DNA of 64,000 nucleotides from Deltaproteobacteria bacterium (GTDB lineage: Bacteria > Desulfobacterota > Desulfobaccia > Desulfobaccales > Desulfobaccaceae). The stretch spans positions 62,001 to 126,000 of the forward strand of contig JAFDGA010000001.1 in NCBI GenBank assembly GCA_019309545.1. The letters run 5' to 3'. The translations under genes and the position numbers were made by a program. The notes under the pieces were generated by a model that saw only the letters and a list, made by a program, of their open reading frames with translations, was not told the origin of the DNA and searched no databases. This document shows positions 39,743 to 52,080 of this stretch, in pieces. Every line of letters begins with the position of its first letter. Position 1 is the stretch's first letter.

Positions 39743-40570
39743 ATGGAGAAAATAAGAGATATTGGCAAGCTGGAGGAGATCGCCCGACAGGTCCGAATTG
39801 ATGTGGTGACTATGTTGAATGCGGCCGGCTCGGGCCATACGGGTGGCTCCCTTTCAGCCACTGATCTCTTGGTGGCCCTGTTCTTTGGCAAAATTAACCT
39901 TGATCCTTTCAACCCTAAGTGGGTTCGGCGGGATCGTTTTGTGCTTTCCAAGGGTCATGCGGCCCCAGCTTATTATGCGGTATTGTCGCGGCTGGGGTTT
40001 TTTGATCGGGAAGAGTTGCTGACCTTGAGGAAATTCGGCAGTTGCCTGCAAGGGCATCCCGATTGTAGCGCTACTCCTGGCGTCGAAGTCTGCAGCGGCT
40101 CTCTGGGACAGGGCTTGTCAGTGGCCAATGGCATGGCCTTGGCGGCCAGGCTTGATGGCCTGCCGATCCGGGTCTATGTCCTGTTGGGTGATGGCGAGGT
40201 CCAAGAAGGCCAGATCTGGGAAGCTGCAATGTCCGCCGCCCATTTTAAACTGCATAATGTTACGGCACTGCTGGATAACAATAAGCTGCAAATCGATGGC
40301 AAGGTGGAAGATATTATGAATATTGAACCGCTGACCCAGAAATGGCAAGCTTTTGGCTGGCAGACCATAGAAATCGACGGCCATAATTTGGCTCAAATTC
40401 TCGAGGCCTTGGATGCCGCCGAAGAGGTCAAGGACCGCCCCAGTATCATCATTGCCTCCACCATCAAGGGGAAAGGTGTATCCATCTTTGAAAATAAAGT
40501 AGAATATCACGGTGTCGCCCCCACTGATGAAGAACTGGCTATTGCCCTCAAAGAGCTCGGTGCCTATTAA
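39743..40570 (+). CDS. Transketolase, N-terminal subunit
   Basis: This 275-residue protein carries the first half of transketolase, with the thiamine-diphosphate-binding part: GDGEVQEGQIWEAAMSA and LLDNNKLQIDG, and the substrate-site His in GSGHTGGS and SKGHAAPAYY. The second half is the next gene, 33 bases downstream. Split transketolases are common in anaerobes and archaea. It interconverts pentose and hexose phosphates in the cytoplasm. It is the first gene of a tight run that continues into the S41 proteins. Confidence 0.94.
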   Translation: MEKIRDIGKLEEIARQVRIDVVTMLNAAGSGHTGGSLSATDLLVALFFGKINLDPFNPKWVRRDRFVLSKGHAAPAYYAVLSRLGFFDREELLTLRKFGSCLQGHPDCSATPGVEVCSGSLGQGLSVANGMALAARLDGLPIRVYVLLGDGEVQEGQIWEAAMSAAHFKLHNVTALLDNNKLQIDGKVEDIMNIEPLTQKWQAFGWQTIEIDGHNLAQILEALDAAEEVKDRPSIIIASTIKGKGVSIFENKVEYHGVAPTDEELAIALKELGAY

Positions 40571-40603
40571 ACCATCCGGTTAAGCACCCCAAGGAGTATA
40601 GTA

Positions 40604-41578
40604 TTGGAAAAACTTAGCACCAGGGTAGAATACGGCAAGGCCCTGGCCGAATTAGGGGAAAAACACAAAGAGATCGTGGCCCTGGATGCCGATTTGTCCG
40701 GTTCCACCAATACCCAGCGGTTTGCCAAGGTTTTTCAGGACCGCTTTTTTAATATGGGGATTGCGGAACAGGACCTGATGGGAACCGCGGCCGGGTTGGC
40801 GGTGAGCGGCAAAATTCCCTTTGCCAGTACTTTCGCCATATTTGCCACCGGCCGGGGCTGGGAGCAGATCCGACAGACCATCGCTTATGCCAGCCTGAAT
40901 GTCAAAATCGTTGCCAGCCACGGCGGAGTCACTGTAGGTGAGGATGGCGGCTCGCACCAGGCCATTGAAGACCTGGCCTTGATGCGGATTATCCCCAATA
41001 TGGTGGTTCTGGTGCCGGCGGATGGCATTGAAGTCCGCCGGATGATCGAATGGGCGATAAACTATCAGGGGCCGGTGTATATGCGCACTTCCCGGATTCC
41101 CTTCCCGGTGATTTATGATTCAGAATACTGTTTTACCCTGGGTAAGGGGTCAATTCTGCGAGAAGGCGACGACCTCTGTCTGGCCGGCATAGGTTTAATG
41201 GTGCACCATTGTTTGGAGGCCGCGGAATTGCTAGCCGCCGAGGGGATTTCGGCCCGAGTCATCAATTTGTCCACCCTCAAACCCCTGGATTGGGAACTGG
41301 TGGTGGCGTCGGCCCAAAAAACCGGGGCTCTGGTGACCGCCGAAGAACACCTGGTAACCGGCGGCTTGGGCAGTGCAGTGAGCGAAGTTCTGGCTGAACA
41401 TTGTCCTGTGCCGCTGCAACGGGTCGGCATTAAGGACGTGTTTGGGATTTCCGGCAAACCCCGTGATCTGCTAGAACATTTTGGCCTGATGCCCATAGAT
41501 ATACGCAATGCCGCCCGTCAAGTCCTGAAAAATAAAACCAGGCAAAAGCACCTGGGATTGTACCAGGTAATCAAATGA
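40604..41578 (+). CDS. Transketolase, C-terminal subunit
   Basis: This 324-residue second half of split transketolase has the pyrimidine-binding domain (MGIAEQDLMGTAAGLA, FASTFAIFATGRGWEQIRQ) and the C-terminal domain. The start is TTG with AAGGAG in front. The stop overlaps the ATG of the next gene (ATGA), so the S41 protein is translated together with it. It works as a complex with the preceding subunit. Confidence 0.93.
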   Translation: MEKLSTRVEYGKALAELGEKHKEIVALDADLSGSTNTQRFAKVFQDRFFNMGIAEQDLMGTAAGLAVSGKIPFASTFAIFATGRGWEQIRQTIAYASLNVKIVASHGGVTVGEDGGSHQAIEDLALMRIIPNMVVLVPADGIEVRRMIEWAINYQGPVYMRTSRIPFPVIYDSEYCFTLGKGSILREGDDLCLAGIGLMVHHCLEAAELLAAEGISARVINLSTLKPLDWELVVASAQKTGALVTAEEHLVTGGLGSAVSEVLAEHCPVPLQRVGIKDVFGISGKPRDLLEHFGLMPIDIRNAARQVLKNKTRQKHLGLYQVIK

Positions 41579-42879
41579 ATCCAAGATCCTGTCGTCGTAC
41601 CGTTCTCCGGATGTCTACTTTCAGTTTGGGTTTAATCTTCCTGGTGGTGGGCCTCTGGAGTGTGACCTGCTCACCCCCGGCTCAGGCTGCCTCCACTCAG
41701 ACCTATGCCCAGCTGCGGCTCCTGATGGAGGCGCTTTACGAAGTCGACAATAAGTATGTGGGCCAGAAGAAGGATGCAAATCTGATCTATGGCGCTATTC
41801 GCGGCATGGTTATGTCCTTAGATCCCAGTTCGTCGTTTTTAACTCCCACGGATTATCAACAGATGCAGGCCGGGAACAAAGGGCCGATCGGCCAGGTGGG
41901 AGTGGAATTAACCTTTAAGAATAAGGTGTTAACTGTTGTTGCTCCTTTGGAAGGCGGTCCGGCCTGGCGGGCCGGGATCAGAGCCGGCGACCATATTCTC
42001 AAAATCAACAATCAGATGGTCAGAGACCTGACTACCATGGAGGCGGCCAGACTTCTGCAAGGAGTACCGGGATCGACCATCGATTTACAGATAATTCGCA
42101 ACGGAATGATTAAACCCCAGGACATATCCATCAAGTTGGAAAAGCTAAGTCCGGTCAGTCTCAGCCATTACACTCTGGAAAATGATTATGATTATCTGCG
42201 CCTGAAATATTTTAACGACCGGACCGCGGATGAATTGGAACGGATTATAAGAAAAATTGTCAAACGCCGACCACCGGTCAAAGGTGTGATCCTCGACCTG
42301 CGCAACACGGCAGGCGGCAGTTTGGAGCAGGCGATTGCCAGCGCCTCGGTATTTATCGGCGACTCGATGGTATTCTACACCAGGGGCCGGCATCAGGAAG
42401 CCCCCCAGCCCCGTTATGGTCAGAAAAAAGAGCGGCTTTTAAGAAATATACCTCTCGTGGTCCTGGTGGATGGGGGCACCGCCCGAGCCGCGGAGATTCT
42501 GGCCGGAGCTCTCCAGGACCAGTACGGGGCATTGCTATTAGGATTTAAAACCTTTGGTGACGGGGCAGTGCATAAAGTATTTCCTCTAAAAGATGGCTCT
42601 GCCTTAATTTTTACTGTGGCCCATTGCTTCACGCCCAGCGGTCACATTATTCAGGACAAAGGCTTGGAGCCCAAGATTATGGGGATAACCAGCCAAAGCT
42701 CTAAGATTGAGAAGGCTGCGGGGGATCTGGAATTAACGCAGCCCAGAGAGATTTTAAATGCCAAGGATCTGGTTAAAGATCCCCTGATCCTCCAGGCCCT
42801 CAAACTCTTGGGACTGGAAGGAAGTTTAGTTGTAGAGCAGCCGTCGGCCAACCTCCCCTCGGGTGCCCGGGGTAAATGA
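41575..42879 (+). CDS. S41 (CtpA-like) protein lacking catalytic residues
   Basis: This 434-residue exported protein has the S41 layout: signal segment (about 15-38), N-terminal helices, PDZ domain (about 105-185) and protease-like core. The catalytic Ser, Lys and Gln of the family align with R304, D329 and H333: the text reads TARAAEI where the active form has SASASEI, and TFGDGAVH where it has SFGKGSVQ. The 25-residue Ser-Lys spacing is kept in the alignment. It is therefore probably a pseudoprotease, perhaps a regulator or scaffold for the active copy that follows. It overlaps both neighbours by ATGA junctions. Confidence 0.88.
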   Translation: MNPRSCRRTVLRMSTFSLGLIFLVVGLWSVTCSPPAQAASTQTYAQLRLLMEALYEVDNKYVGQKKDANLIYGAIRGMVMSLDPSSSFLTPTDYQQMQAGNKGPIGQVGVELTFKNKVLTVVAPLEGGPAWRAGIRAGDHILKINNQMVRDLTTMEAARLLQGVPGSTIDLQIIRNGMIKPQDISIKLEKLSPVSLSHYTLENDYDYLRLKYFNDRTADELERIIRKIVKRRPPVKGVILDLRNTAGGSLEQAIASASVFIGDSMVFYTRGRHQEAPQPRYGQKKERLLRNIPLVVLVDGGTARAAEILAGALQDQYGALLLGFKTFGDGAVHKVFPLKDGSALIFTVAHCFTPSGHIIQDKGLEPKIMGITSQSSKIEKAAGDLELTQPREILNAKDLVKDPLILQALKLLGLEGSLVVEQPSANLPSGARGK

Positions 42880-44312
42880 GGCTGTTCCGGCACCTCTGTA
42901 TGTCTAATAAATTATTATCACCGGGATTTTTTTTAAGGGTAAAAAGAATTATGCATCTCACCATCTGGGCGAGAAAAGCTGCGGAAGATTGGGGCAGAAC
43001 AGAACGATGCTGCCTCAGCCGGGTCCTGGCCACCGGGTTGCTATTACTGCTTCTGACTGGAGTAGGCTGGGGCCAAAGTGAAGACTCTTTTGATAAACTG
43101 CCGGTTTTTTCTGAAGCCCTGAGCATTATCAAGGACCAGTATGTAGAACCCCGGGATATCAAAAATTTAATCTATGGCTCCATTCGAGGCGTCGTGGGAA
43201 CTCTGGATTCGCATTCCTCCTTCATGACTCCGGAGGAATTCCGGGAATTACAGATTGAGACCCGAGGACAGTTCAGCGGCATTGGTATCGAGATAACCAT
43301 GAAGGACAGCCTGTTAATCGTGGTCTCACCGATTGAGGGCACCCCGGCCTACCGGGCCGGAATCCAGGCCGGCGATCGGATTGTCAAGATCAATGGCGCC
43401 AGTACCAAGAACTTGTCCCTGATGGAAGCGGTTAAAAAGATTCGGGGACCCAAAGGTTCGCGAGTTACCCTGACCATTATGCGGGAGGGTTTAAAAGCGC
43501 CCAAAAACTATACCTTAACCCGAGATATTATTCCCATTCGCAGTGTGAAGGCCCGTTATCTGGACGAGGGTATCGGTTACATCCGGATCACCAACTTCCA
43601 GGATCAGACCGAAAAAGACCTGCAAAAAGCGATCAAAGCCTTGCAAACCCGCCTCAAACCGTTCCAGGGACTGATTCTGGATCTGCGCAATGACCCCGGC
43701 GGCCTTTTAGACCAAGCCGTCCGCGTGGCTGATGAATTCCTCGCCAAGGGTCTGATCGTCTATACCGAAGGCCGGGACAACAGTCAACTGATGCGCTTTT
43801 ATGCCGAACCAGGGTCGGGCAACGGCGCGGAATCATTTCCGCTGGTGGTGCTGATCAATGAAGGCAGTGCCTCAGCCTCGGAGATTGTTGCTGGAGCGGT
43901 GCAGGATCATAAGCGGGGTCTGATCATTGGGACCAAAAGTTTTGGCAAGGGCTCGGTCCAGACTATCGTCCCCTTAGAGGATGGCTCAGCCCTGAAATTA
44001 ACTACGGCTCATTATTTTACTCCCTTAGGGCACTCTATCCAAGACAAGGGGATTATTCCTGACCTGGTAGTCGAAGCCACTCCTATCCCCGAGGGCAAAA
44101 GCCTCGAGGCTCTGCGGCAACAAGCACTGGAACGGCGGATGCAGAAAAAGGGCCTGACCGATAAACCCTGGACCGCGCCGATCAGCCCGGAGGAACTAAA
44201 GGAGGATCCGCAATTGCAGCAAGCCGTAGAGGTCCTCAAAGACTGGCCGCCGCCCAAGCTGGTAGCCAAAGTAAAAGAACAGAATTCCAGTCCGTCCAGT
44301 TCGCCAAAATAA
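42876..44312 (+). CDS. S41 family C-terminal processing protease
   Basis: This is a full carboxy-terminal processing protease of up to 478 residues that cuts exported proteins in the periplasm. A hydrophobic signal segment (LATGLLLLLLTGVGWG) is followed by a PDZ domain (about 130-210) and the core. Catalytic S333 (SASASEI), K358 (SFGKGSVQ) and Q362 keep the family spacing (25 and 29). The ATG at 42876 overlaps the stop of the inactive copy; an internal ATG at 42951 with AAGGG upstream is an alternative and gives a more normal signal peptide. Confidence 0.93.
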   Translation: MRLFRHLCMSNKLLSPGFFLRVKRIMHLTIWARKAAEDWGRTERCCLSRVLATGLLLLLLTGVGWGQSEDSFDKLPVFSEALSIIKDQYVEPRDIKNLIYGSIRGVVGTLDSHSSFMTPEEFRELQIETRGQFSGIGIEITMKDSLLIVVSPIEGTPAYRAGIQAGDRIVKINGASTKNLSLMEAVKKIRGPKGSRVTLTIMREGLKAPKNYTLTRDIIPIRSVKARYLDEGIGYIRITNFQDQTEKDLQKAIKALQTRLKPFQGLILDLRNDPGGLLDQAVRVADEFLAKGLIVYTEGRDNSQLMRFYAEPGSGNGAESFPLVVLINEGSASASEIVAGAVQDHKRGLIIGTKSFGKGSVQTIVPLEDGSALKLTTAHYFTPLGHSIQDKGIIPDLVVEATPIPEGKSLEALRQQALERRMQKKGLTDKPWTAPISPEELKEDPQLQQAVEVLKDWPPPKLVAKVKEQNSSPSSSPK

Positions 44313-44467: not shown

Positions 44468-46126
44468 ATGAAAATTACCCTTGCCCAATTAAACCCGGTA
44501 GTCGGCGATGTCGCGGGAAATCTACAAAAAATTTTGGACCTCTGGCCCCGATTCAGCTCTCAATCTGACCTCCTGGTGTTTCCGGAGTTATTTCTGGTAG
44601 GCTACCCGCCCCGGGATCTGTTGGAGAAACCCAGCCTGATTGCCGCGGTTCGGTCAGCCATACAGGAGCTGTTAAAGGCCTCAACTGGCTACCCCGGTTC
44701 AGCCATCCTGGTCGGCACGCCTTGGCCCTCCGACCGGGATTCAGGAAAGCCGCTGTGCAATTCTGCCCTGGTAATTTATCAGGGAAAAACAATCTGCCAC
44801 CAACACAAATCTTTGCTGCCCACCTATGATGTTTTTGACGAAACCAGATATTTTGAAGCTGCGGGGGAGGTGCAGGTCTGCCCTTTTAAAGATCAGAGGC
44901 TGGGGATCTCCATCTGTGAGGACGCCTGGTATGGACCAGAATCGTGGTCCCGCCAACTTTATCCGGTTGATCCGTTAAAGGTTCTGGCCCAGAAGGGGGC
45001 CACGCTGTTGATCAATATTGCCGCCTCGCCGTTTCAGGTGGACAAAGAGGCCACCCGCTATCAACTGCTTCGCCACCATGCTGAACAATACCAACTGCCT
45101 CTTATTTATGTGAATCAGGTGGGGGGAAACGATGAATTGATCTTTGATGGCCGCAGTCTGGTTCTGGACCGGGCCGGGGAGCTCCTGAGCGTGCTGCCCG
45201 CCTTTCAGGAGGAAGTGGTCACTATCGACATCGAGGCAGGGGCCAGCCCGCGGCCTTTTGTCCCTCAGGAACCGATCGCCAGCGTTTATCAGGCCCTGAT
45301 TTTAGGGACCCGGGATTATCTCCGAAAATGTGACTTTAGCCGGGCGGTGGTGGGTCTGTCCGGCGGCATCGACTCAGCGGTCACCTGTTGTCTGGCAGCG
45401 CAGGCCCTGGGCAGGGAGAATGTGCTGGGAGTGGCCATGCCCTCTCCCTATTCTTCCCCGGCCAGTCTGGCCGATGCCCGCAAACTGGCTGAGAACCTGG
45501 GGATTGAATTTAAGGTGATCCCCATTGCTACCATATATCGATCATATCTTGACACTCTGAGTCTCCATTTGCCGGTTGAGGAGATCAATGTAACGCTGGA
45601 GAATATCCAGGCCCGGATCCGGGGCAATATCTTGATGGCCCTGTCCAACCAGTATGGCTATCTGGTACTTTCTACCGGAAACAAAAGTGAACTGGCGGTG
45701 GGCTACTGCACCCTGTACGGGGATATGAGCGGCGGTTTGGCGGTCCTTGCCGATGTCCCCAAGACCATGGTCTATCAACTGGGGCATTATATCAACCGCG
45801 CGGCAGAAATTATTCCAGCGCCGATCCTGACCAAAGCGCCCTCGGCGGAATTAAAACCGGATCAGAAAGATCAGGATACCTTGCCGCCTTACGACCTGCT
45901 GGATCAGATCCTGCATTACTATCTTACTGAGAAATACTCAGCCCAGGACATTATTAATCTTAATTATGACCCGGAAGTGGTGCACTGGGTGATTCGCACC
46001 GTTGATCGTAATGAGTATAAGAGACGCCAGGCAGCCCCTGGACTGAAAGTGACCAGCAAGGCCTTTGGCATGGGCCGGCGCATGCCCATCGCGGCTAACT
46101 ATAACCCCAAAAATAGGGGGGCGTGA
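44468..46126 (+). CDS. nadE: Glutamine-dependent NAD+ synthetase
   Basis: This 552-residue enzyme makes NAD+ from deamido-NAD+, ATP and glutamine. The N-terminal nitrilase-type glutaminase domain has Glu (FPELFLVGYPPRDLL), Lys (HKSLLPTYDVFDETRYF) and Cys (ISICEDAWYG). The C-terminal synthetase has the PP-loop GLSGGIDSAV and STGNKSELAVGYCTLYGD. It is full length. The stop codon lies within a perfect 24-bp palindrome (46115-46138). It may be transcribed from its own promoter, since 155 bases and a repeat separate it from the S41 gene. Confidence 0.95.
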   Translation: MKITLAQLNPVVGDVAGNLQKILDLWPRFSSQSDLLVFPELFLVGYPPRDLLEKPSLIAAVRSAIQELLKASTGYPGSAILVGTPWPSDRDSGKPLCNSALVIYQGKTICHQHKSLLPTYDVFDETRYFEAAGEVQVCPFKDQRLGISICEDAWYGPESWSRQLYPVDPLKVLAQKGATLLINIAASPFQVDKEATRYQLLRHHAEQYQLPLIYVNQVGGNDELIFDGRSLVLDRAGELLSVLPAFQEEVVTIDIEAGASPRPFVPQEPIASVYQALILGTRDYLRKCDFSRAVVGLSGGIDSAVTCCLAAQALGRENVLGVAMPSPYSSPASLADARKLAENLGIEFKVIPIATIYRSYLDTLSLHLPVEEINVTLENIQARIRGNILMALSNQYGYLVLSTGNKSELAVGYCTLYGDMSGGLAVLADVPKTMVYQLGHYINRAAEIIPAPILTKAPSAELKPDQKDQDTLPPYDLLDQILHYYLTEKYSAQDIINLNYDPEVVHWVIRTVDRNEYKRRQAAPGLKVTSKAFGMGRRMPIAANYNPKNRGA

Positions 46127-48831: not shown

Positions 48832-49605
48832 TCAAGATCGGCCAGGGCATGCCTGTTCAACCCATTGCTGGGCGGTCAGCTGCTGGCGACAGGTTGGACA
48901 TAAGTGCCACAGGGAATCAATTTCCGGAAATTGCTCCGCAAGAAAGGCCATTTTTTGGGGGGCAAAGAACCGACCGCAGCGGGGGCAGGGATGTAGTTCC
49001 ACCTGGGTATGCCAGGTGTGTAGAATCCGCGCATGCCCCCTATCCTCTATGTGGATGGCACCCGTGGGACAGATTTCAGCGCAGGCCCCGCAGCCGAGGC
49101 AAGCCTCGCTGTGCAGTTCAAAGGGGGTGCCGACTTTACGGTTACCCCCCCGCCCCACAAAGCCGATGGCGCAAGCGCCGATGGCCTCGTGGCAGACCCT
49201 CACACAGAGGCCGCACAGCACACATAGTTCCATTTCCCCCTCAGGGGGGGAGACTGGAAAACGGGACTCTCTCACTCCCATAGCCGCGGCCAACTTCTTA
49301 ATCACTTCCGATTGCGAAGCGCGGCTGAGGAGAAATTCCACCGCCAGACGACGGGCGGTAACCGCCTCCGGGGTTTCGGTGTTTACTATCATGCCGTCTT
49401 CGGCGGGATGGACGCAGGCGGCGACCAGTTTCGAAGGCGGGGGGCTAGATAGACTCACCATACATAGCCGGCAGGCCCCATAGGGTGCCAGCCCCTCATG
49501 ATAACAGAGGGTCGGCAAAGCTACGCCCGCGGCGCGCACGGCTTGCAATACCCGGGCGCCCTGCGGGACGGTTACCGGCCGTCCATTTACGGTCAGATGG
49601 ATCAT
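48832..49605 (-). CDS. Multi-cluster iron-sulfur protein of the CO dehydrogenase operon
   Basis: This 257-residue protein has three parts. The N-terminal 2Fe-2S domain (about 1-75) is like that of NuoG/HoxU and formate dehydrogenase accessory subunits, with cysteines C34 (LCYHEG), C45 and C48 (GACRLC) and C64. Two 4Fe-4S sites follow: CVLCGLCVRVCHEAIG and CLGCGACAEICPTGA. The C-terminal end has a zinc-ribbon-like pair of pairs, CPRC and CPTC, which I do not recognise as part of a known family. It lies 29 bases after cooS on the same strand and probably carries electrons between CooS and a NAD(P)- or ferredoxin-linked partner (inference). Confidence 0.8.
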   Translation of the reverse strand: MIHLTVNGRPVTVPQGARVLQAVRAAGVALPTLCYHEGLAPYGACRLCMVSLSSPPPSKLVAACVHPAEDGMIVNTETPEAVTARRLAVEFLLSRASQSEVIKKLAAAMGVRESRFPVSPPEGEMELCVLCGLCVRVCHEAIGACAIGFVGRGGNRKVGTPFELHSEACLGCGACAEICPTGAIHIEDRGHARILHTWHTQVELHPCPRCGRFFAPQKMAFLAEQFPEIDSLWHLCPTCRQQLTAQQWVEQACPGRS

Positions 49606-49634
49606 CAGACTTAGAGGTTAATCACTCAAGCTTC

Positions 49635-51515
49635 TTAAAGGCCCAAAGCCGTCCGTTTGTCCTCGATATGGCCGATCATCAGTTGGGCCGCCTTAACCGG
49701 ATCCGGCTCTACCGCAAAAGTGGCACCAACTACATCTTTAGCACCGGTGGTCAACAATTCGGTCACCACGGTGCTGCCCAGGACCGGGGGTACGGTACCT
49801 AAAACCGTGTAGATTCCGGAAGATACCACATAGGACCCAATACTGACGGCCTTTTCACTCATCCATTCCGGAGCGGCGCCGGCCACCGGCAGATCACTGA
49901 TATCCACTCCCAAGGCGTTGGCCACCGCGGCGCAAACGGTCAGGATGCGGCTGATGTCCACACAGGAACCCATATGCAATACCGGAGGAATCCCTAAACT
50001 CTGGCATACCGCCTTAAGTCCATCCCCGGCCTGGGCCGCGGCTTCCGGCAACATCAGGCCGACTTTGGCACAGGCGATGGCATTGCAGCCGGTGGTCACT
50101 ACCAGGACATTGTTTTTAATTAGTTCCCGGACCAGGTTGACATGGCCGAAATCGTGCTGAACTTTGGGATTATTGCAGCCCACCACCCCGGCGATACCCT
50201 TAATGGCCCCGGACTTGATTTGTTCCAGGAGCGGCTCGAGGCTGCCCCCCAGGGCCTCCAGGATGGCCTCGGTGCTGAAGCCGACCAGGCATTCCACCTT
50301 ATCGTTCGGGATCACCACCTGGCCAGGTTTACGCCAGCGATAATTTTCCACCGCGATGCGGACGATCTCCTTAGCAATGGCATAGGCCTGTTCTTCATGA
50401 AATTCGATGTGGGTGGCGCCGGGAAACTTGGCTTTGGGAGAAGTGGAGATAAACCTGGTATGGAAGCAGCCGATCAGATTCCCCAAAGCCGGCATAATAC
50501 ACTGGACATCGACGATAATGGCTTCTACTGCGCCGGTGATCACCGCCAGTTCCTGTTGCAGGAAATTACCGACCATAGGGATGCCGTGCCGCATCAGCAC
50601 CTCATTGCCGGTGCAGCACAGGCCGACCACATTAATTCCTTGAGCCCCGAGCTTGGCGGCCAAGCCCAGCATTTCCGCATCACGGCAGGCGGCGACGATC
50701 ATTTCCGACAGGGTCGGTTCATGGCCATGAACAACGATATTGACTTCGTCCGCCTTGAGAACCCCGAGGTTGGCCAGAGACCGGATGGGCTTGGGGGTGC
50801 CGAACAGGACATCCGAGATCTCGGTAGCGATCATCGAACCGCCCCAGCCATCAGCGATCGAGGCTCTAAGTCCCTGCAAGATCAGATTAACCGGGTCATT
50901 GTCCACCCCGATATGGGTGCGGTGCATAATTTCCACGATTTCGCGGTCCACCCCGCGAGGGTCAATCCCCAGTTTCTGCCATAAGCCGACCCGTTTCTGG
51001 GGAGCCCGGCGGCTGAATTGAATCGGGCCTTCCTGTTTGCCGAACTCGGCATAAACCGCCCGGGCTAGATCCAAAGCGATTTCTTCTTTGCCCCGGCCCT
51101 CGGTGGCAATATTGTATTCAGCGGCTAGAGTCCGCAGCTTCTGCTCGTCTCTGATCTCGTATCCGCCCCCCTTGCCCTCGGCGGTGAGCAGCAGGGTGTG
51201 GGCCAGGTCGCGGCCATGATCGGAATGGGCCGCCGCGCCGGCAGCGATCATACGGATCAGGTTGCGGGCCACGATGATGTCGGCGGAAGCCCCGCAAACC
51301 CCTTGCTTGGGCCCGGCATCCTCAAAAGGACTGATGCGACACGGCCCCATATTACAGTTGCGACAACAAACCCCCAGTTCGCCGAAACCACATTCCGGTA
51401 ACATGGCCTCATATCGGTCCCAGGCGGTCTCCAACCCCAATCCTTCAGCCCGTACCAGCATCTGGTGAACACTGGGATCAATGCTTCGCTTTAAGATTTT
51501 GTCACTGGTCGCCAT
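49635..51515 (-). CDS. cooS: Anaerobic carbon monoxide dehydrogenase catalytic subunit
   Basis: This 626-residue Ni-Fe enzyme interconverts CO and CO2. The N-terminal cluster region reads LPECGFGELGVCCRNCNMGPC and then GVCGAS, matching the D- and B-cluster ligands. The C-cluster residues are distributed over the rest, with Cys in GLCCTGNEVL, DVQCIMPAL, GVVGCNNP, TGCNAIACAK and MGSCVDISR. I chose the ATG with AAGGAGGGAG upstream. No acetyl-CoA synthase subunit is in the window, so it is a monofunctional type next to a CooF-like protein. Confidence 0.95.
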   Translation of the reverse strand: MATSDKILKRSIDPSVHQMLVRAEGLGLETAWDRYEAMLPECGFGELGVCCRNCNMGPCRISPFEDAGPKQGVCGASADIIVARNLIRMIAAGAAAHSDHGRDLAHTLLLTAEGKGGGYEIRDEQKLRTLAAEYNIATEGRGKEEIALDLARAVYAEFGKQEGPIQFSRRAPQKRVGLWQKLGIDPRGVDREIVEIMHRTHIGVDNDPVNLILQGLRASIADGWGGSMIATEISDVLFGTPKPIRSLANLGVLKADEVNIVVHGHEPTLSEMIVAACRDAEMLGLAAKLGAQGINVVGLCCTGNEVLMRHGIPMVGNFLQQELAVITGAVEAIIVDVQCIMPALGNLIGCFHTRFISTSPKAKFPGATHIEFHEEQAYAIAKEIVRIAVENYRWRKPGQVVIPNDKVECLVGFSTEAILEALGGSLEPLLEQIKSGAIKGIAGVVGCNNPKVQHDFGHVNLVRELIKNNVLVVTTGCNAIACAKVGLMLPEAAAQAGDGLKAVCQSLGIPPVLHMGSCVDISRILTVCAAVANALGVDISDLPVAGAAPEWMSEKAVSIGSYVVSSGIYTVLGTVPPVLGSTVVTELLTTGAKDVVGATFAVEPDPVKAAQLMIGHIEDKRTALGL

Positions 51516-51534
51516 GCTAGTCTCCCTCCTTGCT

Positions 51535-52080
51535 TTAGCTGCCCAGTTGCGGCTGGCTGCCAAGAGCTTCTAAAAATTGTCGGGCCGCGGCCTGACTGGC
51601 CCGATCAGCTTCTCGTTGCGGATAGCGTAGACTAAGCGCCCTGGTAGGACAGGCCGCCACGCAGGCCGGACCCTCCGGGCGATCAACACACAGATCGCAT
51701 TTGAACGCGGCCCGTTTCTCTTGCCCGGCGACCGTGGTGGTGGCGACGTGGATGGCCCCGAAGGGGCAGACCATCATACACAGACGACAGCCAATGCAGC
51801 GGGCCTGATCGACCGCGGTATAGGTTTCGGTGCGATAAGTGGCGCCGGTGGGACAGACCCGCACACAAGGAGCATCCTGACACTGGCGACATTGGACCGG
51901 CAGCTTGACTGCATCGACTTGGACCACCCGATTGCGGCGGTGCAGCCGTTCCTGGGCCAGCACCGCGCCAATGATACTCCCGGCCTGGGTATGCGCTGCG
52001 GCACAGGCCAACTCACAGGTGTGGCAACCTACACAGCGCTGGGGATCAACCAACAGAAATGGACCTTCAAACTGCTCCAT
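51535..52080 (-). CDS. cooF: CooF-like 4Fe-4S ferredoxin
   Basis: This 181-residue polyferredoxin has four cluster motifs: CVGCHTCELACAAAH, CRQCQDAPCVRVCPTGA, CIGCRLCMMVCPFGA and CDLCVDRPEGPACVAACPT. It resembles CooF and related HycB-type electron-transfer subunits. It is the first gene of cooF-cooS-Fe-S protein, 19 bases before cooS. GGGAGG precedes the ATG. It would shuttle electrons from CooS to other enzymes. Confidence 0.9.
   Translation of the reverse strand: MEQFEGPFLLVDPQRCVGCHTCELACAAAHTQAGSIIGAVLAQERLHRRNRVVQVDAVKLPVQCRQCQDAPCVRVCPTGATYRTETYTAVDQARCIGCRLCMMVCPFGAIHVATTTVAGQEKRAAFKCDLCVDRPEGPACVAACPTRALSLRYPQREADRASQAAARQFLEALGSQPQLGS

Follow-up and report, generated by a model that had tools for sequence, protein, structure and literature searches.

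A probable S41 pseudoprotease kept beside a predicted active CtpA-type paralogue across the Desulfobaccales: a candidate permanent resting subunit

What is a protease stripped of its catalytic residues doing directly upstream of an intact paralogue, and why has it been kept there? The question is raised by two neighbouring genes, here called P1 and P2, in a stretch of 64,000 nucleotides of a Deltaproteobacteria bacterium placed in the Desulfobaccaceae (Desulfobacterota, Desulfobaccales; GenBank assembly GCA_019309545.1, contig JAFDGA010000001.1, positions 62,001 to 126,000 of the forward strand), which is referred to below as the window and numbered from its first letter. A first-pass annotation, made from the letters of the window, described the two as exported PDZ-S41 proteins, an inactive one followed by an active one, and suggested a hetero-oligomer in which the first regulates or scaffolds the second. 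Both open reading frames are indeed where it had placed them, and Pfam Peptidase_S41 and PDZ are found in both. The results of this work indicate that P1 is, almost beyond doubt, a pseudoprotease, accompanied by P2 in every genome of the order in which it was found. By analogy with solved CtpA structures, P1 may join P2 in a hetero-oligomer of the cell envelope and be its permanently resting member, a reading for which the case seems to us about evenly balanced.

The active-site columns were set by alignment to the CtpA of P. aeruginosa (Pa; PDB 7rpq/7rqh), and residues of this protein and of H. pylori (Hp) CtpA are given with these prefixes. P2 residues are numbered from its longest reading frame (42876-44312, 478 amino acids). 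The features of the two genes, all on the plus strand, are as follows.

41575..42879, plus strand: P1, exported pseudoprotease of S41/CtpA type, 434 amino acids (Pfam S41 E 6e-39 plus PDZ; phmmer to PDB 7rqh E 6e-62)
41575..41688, plus strand: P1 N-terminal signal segment, approximate, with a PAQAA cleavage-like site near residues 36-40 (read from the sequence)
41707..41817, plus strand: P1 N-terminal dimerisation region, equivalent to Pa CtpA 44-80 (alignment to Pa CtpA)
41827..41829, plus strand: P1 S85 in place of the activating His (Pa H84, Hp H85; alignment, no P1 has His)
41890..42150, plus strand: P1 PDZ domain, approximate (Pfam), with the GIG carboxylate loop lost and the ligand Arg replaced
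42484..42486, plus strand: P1 R304 in place of the catalytic Ser (alignment)
42559..42561, plus strand: P1 D329 in place of the catalytic Lys (alignment)
42571..42573, plus strand: P1 H333 in place of the catalytic Gln (alignment)
42625..42627, plus strand: P1 C351, one of two conserved P1-specific cysteines, Pa position 349 (alignment)
42766..42816, plus strand: P1 C-terminal oligomerisation helix, equivalent to Pa H8/CDR, approximate (alignment)
42951..44312, plus strand: P2, exported CtpA-type S41 protease, predicted active, 453 amino acids from its probable start (TIGR00225; 7rpq E 2e-105; start by comparison with contig L019)
43212..43214, plus strand: P2 activating His, H113 (Pa H84; alignment)
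43872..43874, plus strand: P2 catalytic Ser, S333 (alignment)
43947..43949, plus strand: P2 catalytic Lys, K358 (alignment)
43959..43961, plus strand: P2 catalytic-site Gln, Q362 (alignment)
44094..44204, plus strand: P2 trans-interacting or motile loop, equivalent to Pa 376-411, approximate (alignment; degenerate and mostly deleted in P1)

In the alignment, R304, D329 and H333 of P1 fall on Ser302, Lys327 and Gln331 of Pa CtpA, and S333, K358 and Q362 of P2 occupy the same three columns; the column of the activating His (Pa His84) holds S85 in P1 and H113 in P2. The loss of all three catalytic residues from the first protein and their presence at family spacing in the second, both read from the window alone by the first-pass annotation, are thereby confirmed. 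A realignment restoring Ser and Lys elsewhere in P1 is rejected, as the strands around both residues align clearly and no alternative alignment to Pa CtpA gives a Ser/Lys dyad. P2 has a Ser-Lys dyad and Gln at the spacing of the S41A/CtpA family, its PDZ domain precedes the S41 core, and it matches the NCBIfam model TIGR00225 at 341 bits (cut-off 218.6). The activating His is kept in 19 of 19 P2s and the trans loop is present, both features of the hexameric CtpA group, to which P2 is predicted to belong. At the Glu385 position of this loop P2s carry Q, E or D, with Q in the window, where Gln-Gln (region 44108-44114) replaces the His-pairing Glu of other CtpAs; the relatives are acidic there or at an adjacent position. 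P1 itself still passes TIGR00225, at 231 bits, so that annotation by this general protease model would call it an active protease.

The loss is not peculiar to the window. Within the Desulfobaccales, an order of sulfate reducers, both genes occur in 27 of 29 genomes, neither occurs in the remaining two, and no genome has one alone. The two genomes without the pair, G340 and G400, are drafts, one 81% and the other 94% complete, in which S41 domains are entirely absent and so is a close tktC, the gene of the C-terminal transketolase subunit that precedes P1 in the window. P1 is dead in 27 of 27 genomes: the Ser position holds R (Q once), the Lys position D, N, E or L, the Gln position H, T, S, V or N, and the His position S, T, N or D, so that none of the four residues of an active site is found in any of them, whilst every P2 with a complete site has it intact (S, K, Q, H). 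The Ser and Lys positions together read R+D, R+N or Q+E in one family of the order (f1), which could be a replacement polar pair, and R+L in the other (f2). P1 and P2 adjoin on one contig in nearly all of the genomes holding them; in two fragmented drafts they lie on separate contigs, and in one genome only, G397 (L071:2667-4824), they are spaced by about 2 kb, including an MtrA-like (PF04208) reading frame. The first-pass annotation had staked its proposal on the pair recurring in relatives, and so it does. No S41 gene other than P1 and P2 was found in the genome of the window, a draft of 2.43 Mb. A search of 395 genomes of the phylum with a P1 profile gave 594-690 bits for 17 P1s and at most 385 for anything else, with no second hit per genome at E 1e-100 outside Desulfobaccales; the best matches outside the order that could be read, in a first search, are all active.

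What P1 has lost goes beyond catalysis. Among the 21 P1s in which residues were counted, the Pro of the substrate strand (P245 in Pa numbering) is Ala in every one and the following G246 is Arg or Trp in 15; the GIG of the PDZ carboxylate loop is lost, the ligand Arg (Pa R161, Hp R162), proposed to draw in substrate, is Gln in 19, and the trans-interacting loop is mostly deleted (63% gaps). P1 would therefore not be a protease, and it is also unlikely to act as a receptor for C-termini of proteins, since the PDZ loop, the PDZ Arg and the substrate-strand Pro are all gone.

It has nevertheless been kept as a protein. The ratio of non-synonymous to synonymous substitution rates (dN/dS) in pairs of close relatives is 0.13-0.37 for P1, 0.11-0.16 for P2 and 0.09-0.14 for transketolase, which shows that P1 is under relaxed but clear purifying constraint; it combines PDZ and S41-core homology with lost catalytic residues, as a pseudoprotease of S41 fold does. 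A hydrophobic N-terminal segment is present in every P1 orthologue aligned. The constraint is unevenly spread along the protein. With regional borders taken from the domain borders of Pa CtpA (PMC11021448), identity in the N-terminal dimerisation region is 0.58 among P1s and 0.60 among P2s, and in the C-terminal helix 0.56 and 0.60. Compared with P2, P1 has lost 0.02 of conservation in the first of these regions and 0.03 in the second; the loss amounts to 0.29 for the hinge, 0.22 for the core, 0.13 for the PDZ domain (still the best conserved domain of P1, at 0.63) and 0.36 for the few alignable columns of the loop. This regional contrast is reached by 6 of 20000 column permutations and by 25 of 342 circular shifts, the stricter control. 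P1 seems, then, to have retained what a subunit of an oligomer needs, with its catalytic and substrate-binding parts relaxed.

In an unrooted tree P1s and P2s each form one clade, with inner branchings that agree on two families, and one branch divides both clades from 14 other CtpAs (bootstrap 96; Shimodaira-Hasegawa-like approximate likelihood-ratio test, SH-aLRT, 91). This favours a single duplication within the lineage before the Desulfobaccales diversified, with P1 evolving fast afterwards, although long-branch effects on P1 are possible. Evolutionary distances among P1s are about 1.8 times those among P2s, and the two sets correlate with r 0.91 (partial r 0.81 given transketolase; 11 species).

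Solved CtpA hexamers offer a place for such a protein. They are trimers of N-terminal dimers, in which one subunit per dimer can activate and the PDZ domain of the resting subunit helps wall off the substrate chamber (PMC11021448, PMC12749690). As only one subunit of each N-dimer is active, a dead partner in the resting place would cost no activity. P1 has lost the residues that an active subunit needs (His84, P245, mostly G246 and the PDZ Arg, in Pa numbering), and its N-terminal dimerisation region and C-terminal helix are under constraint. A dead CtpA paralogue could thus have become fixed in the ancestor of Desulfobaccales, the duplication splitting between two genes the roles of one and making the asymmetry permanent, with P2 always active and P1 always resting; P1 would be kept for its dimerisation region, its PDZ wall and its C-terminal helix. 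What we infer here is contact between P1 and P2, an N-terminal dimer of the two, and the setting or supporting of P2 activity by P1. Of the proposal made by the first-pass annotation, the pseudoprotease beside an active partner is real, and the hetero-oligomer draws indirect support from co-occurrence, from the retained oligomerisation regions and from the half-of-sites behaviour of CtpA hexamers. Taken over all models, a physical partnership of P1 and P2 seems reasonably probable.

Several observations weigh against the resting-subunit reading. P1 has not retained the trans loop that resting subunits of Pa CtpA have. The active subunit of Pa and of Hp CtpA has its His reached by a loop of its partner in the C-dimer (PMC11021448, PMC12749690), and in Pa CtpA the donor is an inactive subunit of a neighbouring dimer (PMC11021448), so that a strictly alternating P1-P2 hexamer would leave the His of P2 without a partner in trans. 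Either the assembly departs from the hexamer already described, or the alternation of P1 and P2 is not strict, or P1 acts alone; one of these must hold. Deletion of the loop had a minor effect in Pa CtpA (PMC11021448), whilst mutation of the equivalent Glu had a strong one in Hp CtpA (PMC12749690). Moreover, a P1 that assembled with itself would be expected just as much to keep its dimerisation regions, the significance of the circular-shift control is modest, a rate correlation between neighbouring genes in 11 species is weak evidence, and single-chain AlphaFold models built from five-row alignments reached a mean predicted local distance difference test score (pLDDT) of 48 for P1 and 49 for P2, too low to be usable.

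Some of these same points suit a P1 that forms homo-oligomers and works separately from P2, as an envelope protein with a PDZ domain and a binding, chaperone or scaffold role, the operon being a relic of tandem duplication. Neither oligomerisation region has been lost, the PDZ fold is well conserved, and loss of the trans loop fits a protein no longer in a CtpA ring. A binding role, however, sits badly with a PDZ domain that has lost its GIG loop and, in nearly all P1s, its ligand Arg, and with a substrate strand lacking its Pro in all; and a protein that had parted from P2 would hardly be expected never to occur without it among 29 genomes. We therefore regard this alternative as unlikely, if still worth keeping in mind. 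A more doubtful one keeps the partnership and turns its sign, with P1 as a dominant-negative regulator that would displace active subunits in P2 oligomers and lower their activity, at a dose set by its expression. Regulators of this kind are usually dead subunits whose interfaces are intact, but CtpA is already a half-of-sites enzyme (PMC11021448, PMC12749690), in which one dead subunit per dimer need not inhibit, and a shared gene cluster favours fixed stoichiometry over separate control. That P1 might be nothing but a decaying pseudogene, or an artefact of assembly or frameshift, is rejected: it does evolve faster than P2, but it is open in 27 genomes, including the finished single-contig genome G001 of 3,282,536 bases, its dN/dS is well below 1, and the same replacements recur across two families. 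We give this explanation next to no credence.

There is also the question of what has become of the dead site itself. Two cysteines, and no others, are conserved among mature P1s. They lie beside the lost Lys, at Pa positions 328 (18 of 21) and 349 (19 of 21), and 16 P1s have both; P2s have no shared cysteine, and neither of the two is found in any P2. Judging from spacing and sequence symmetry, the pair should face each other across the strands of the catalytic hairpin, where it may form a disulfide stiffening the dead site, or bind a ligand. It is tempting to combine this with the asymmetry discussed above into a hetero-oligomeric CtpA whose half-of-sites state was fixed by duplication and whose dead site, remade into two cysteines paired across the strands (with a structural, metal-binding or redox-sensing role), controls the active partner, a combination that we consider improbable as a whole. 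Even less probable is that P1 retains an enzymatic or redox activity based on other residues such as these cysteines: the genus of the window keeps only the second of them (C351), contigs L069 and L070 lack that one, and the substrate strand is damaged throughout.

Among the systems already described, Pa CtpA with LbcA (S41A, CTP-3; PDB 7rqh, 8sxe) is close to P2, which has the same order of signal, N-terminal dimerisation region, PDZ, cap/core, trans loop and C-terminal helix and the same Ser, Lys, Gln and His. One subunit per dimer is inactive in the Pa complex (PMC11021448), but that complex is a homo-hexamer from one gene, with identical resting and active subunits and a lipoprotein, LbcA, that activates it, whereas the Desulfobaccales have a second, dead gene product. 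Hp CtpA (PDB 9jr1, 9ku3) is likewise a hexamer with one active subunit per N-dimer and needs no adaptor (PMC12749690); unlike P1 and P2, it is encoded by a single gene and its resting state is reversible. B. subtilis CtpB (PDB 4c2c-4c2h) has the S41A fold, PDZ gating and N-terminal dimerisation in common with them, but is a dimer with another C-terminal module, without the trans loop, and both of its subunits can be active (PMC12749690, PMC11021448). A parallel to P1 comes from outside the family: ClpR, of the ClpPR proteases of cyanobacteria, plastids and apicoplasts, is a dead paralogue encoded alongside the active subunit and built into the protease core (PMC7966870). It differs in its unrelated fold (S14) and in being cytosolic and ATP-dependent, and its hetero-assembly has been demonstrated, whilst that of P1 and P2 is proposed. 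By analogy, P1 would stand to P2 as ClpR does to ClpP, an earlier case in which a protease core contains dead subunits. The vertebrate retinoid carrier RBP3/IRBP, which P2 matches at E 6e-11, also has an S41-type core and, to our knowledge, no protease activity, but it consists of tandem modules and has no active partner gene.

The pair lies behind a transketolase split into two genes (39743-41578), an arrangement conserved beside the S41 pair across the order.

39743..40570, plus strand: split transketolase, N-terminal subunit (Pfam Transketolase_N; neighbour kept in relatives)
40604..41578, plus strand: split transketolase, C-terminal subunit, tktC (Pfam Transket_pyr and Transketolase_C; its stop overlaps the P1 ATG)

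In most relatives the order is split transketolase, P1, P2 and der, near gatC/gatA; in the genus of the window a glutamine-dependent NAD synthetase-like gene (44468-46126) follows P2, where the rest of the order mostly has the GTPase gene der. The ATGA overlap between tktC and P1 (41575-41578), from which coupling of the pair to transketolase had been read, is real, and contigs L018 and L019 of the same genus keep it. The data do not support a functional link with transketolase, the neighbours (GatCA, split transketolase, Der) being housekeeping genes that share a gene order. The second ATGA, between P1 and P2 (42876-42879), exists as sequence, but the translational coupling proposed for it probably reflects the choice of the longest reading frame. 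ATG 42951 is the more probable start of P2, because P2 of L019 begins 73 nucleotides after P1, at the homologous position; in relatives the gap is mostly 11-199 nucleotides, the longest reading frames overlapping by 4 nucleotides in three. Further along the window (48832-51563), a CO dehydrogenase (CooS)-like gene adjoins genes for an iron-sulfur protein and for thioredoxin/thioredoxin reductase.

Bacterial proteases of the CtpA group have been studied as homo-oligomers whose subunits take turns, and we know of no explanation of why half of the subunits need to rest. A dead paralogue beside a live protease is already familiar from ClpR and ClpP. In the S41 family it would be new as far as the open-licence literature shows, a full-text search of open-licence papers having brought up neither a bacterial S41 pseudoprotease paired with an active enzyme nor an S41 hetero-oligomer. 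If the interpretation proposed here is true, the Desulfobaccales would be a clade in which the resting subunit is a gene of its own, and the two roles, active and resting, could be separated by mutating one gene product only.

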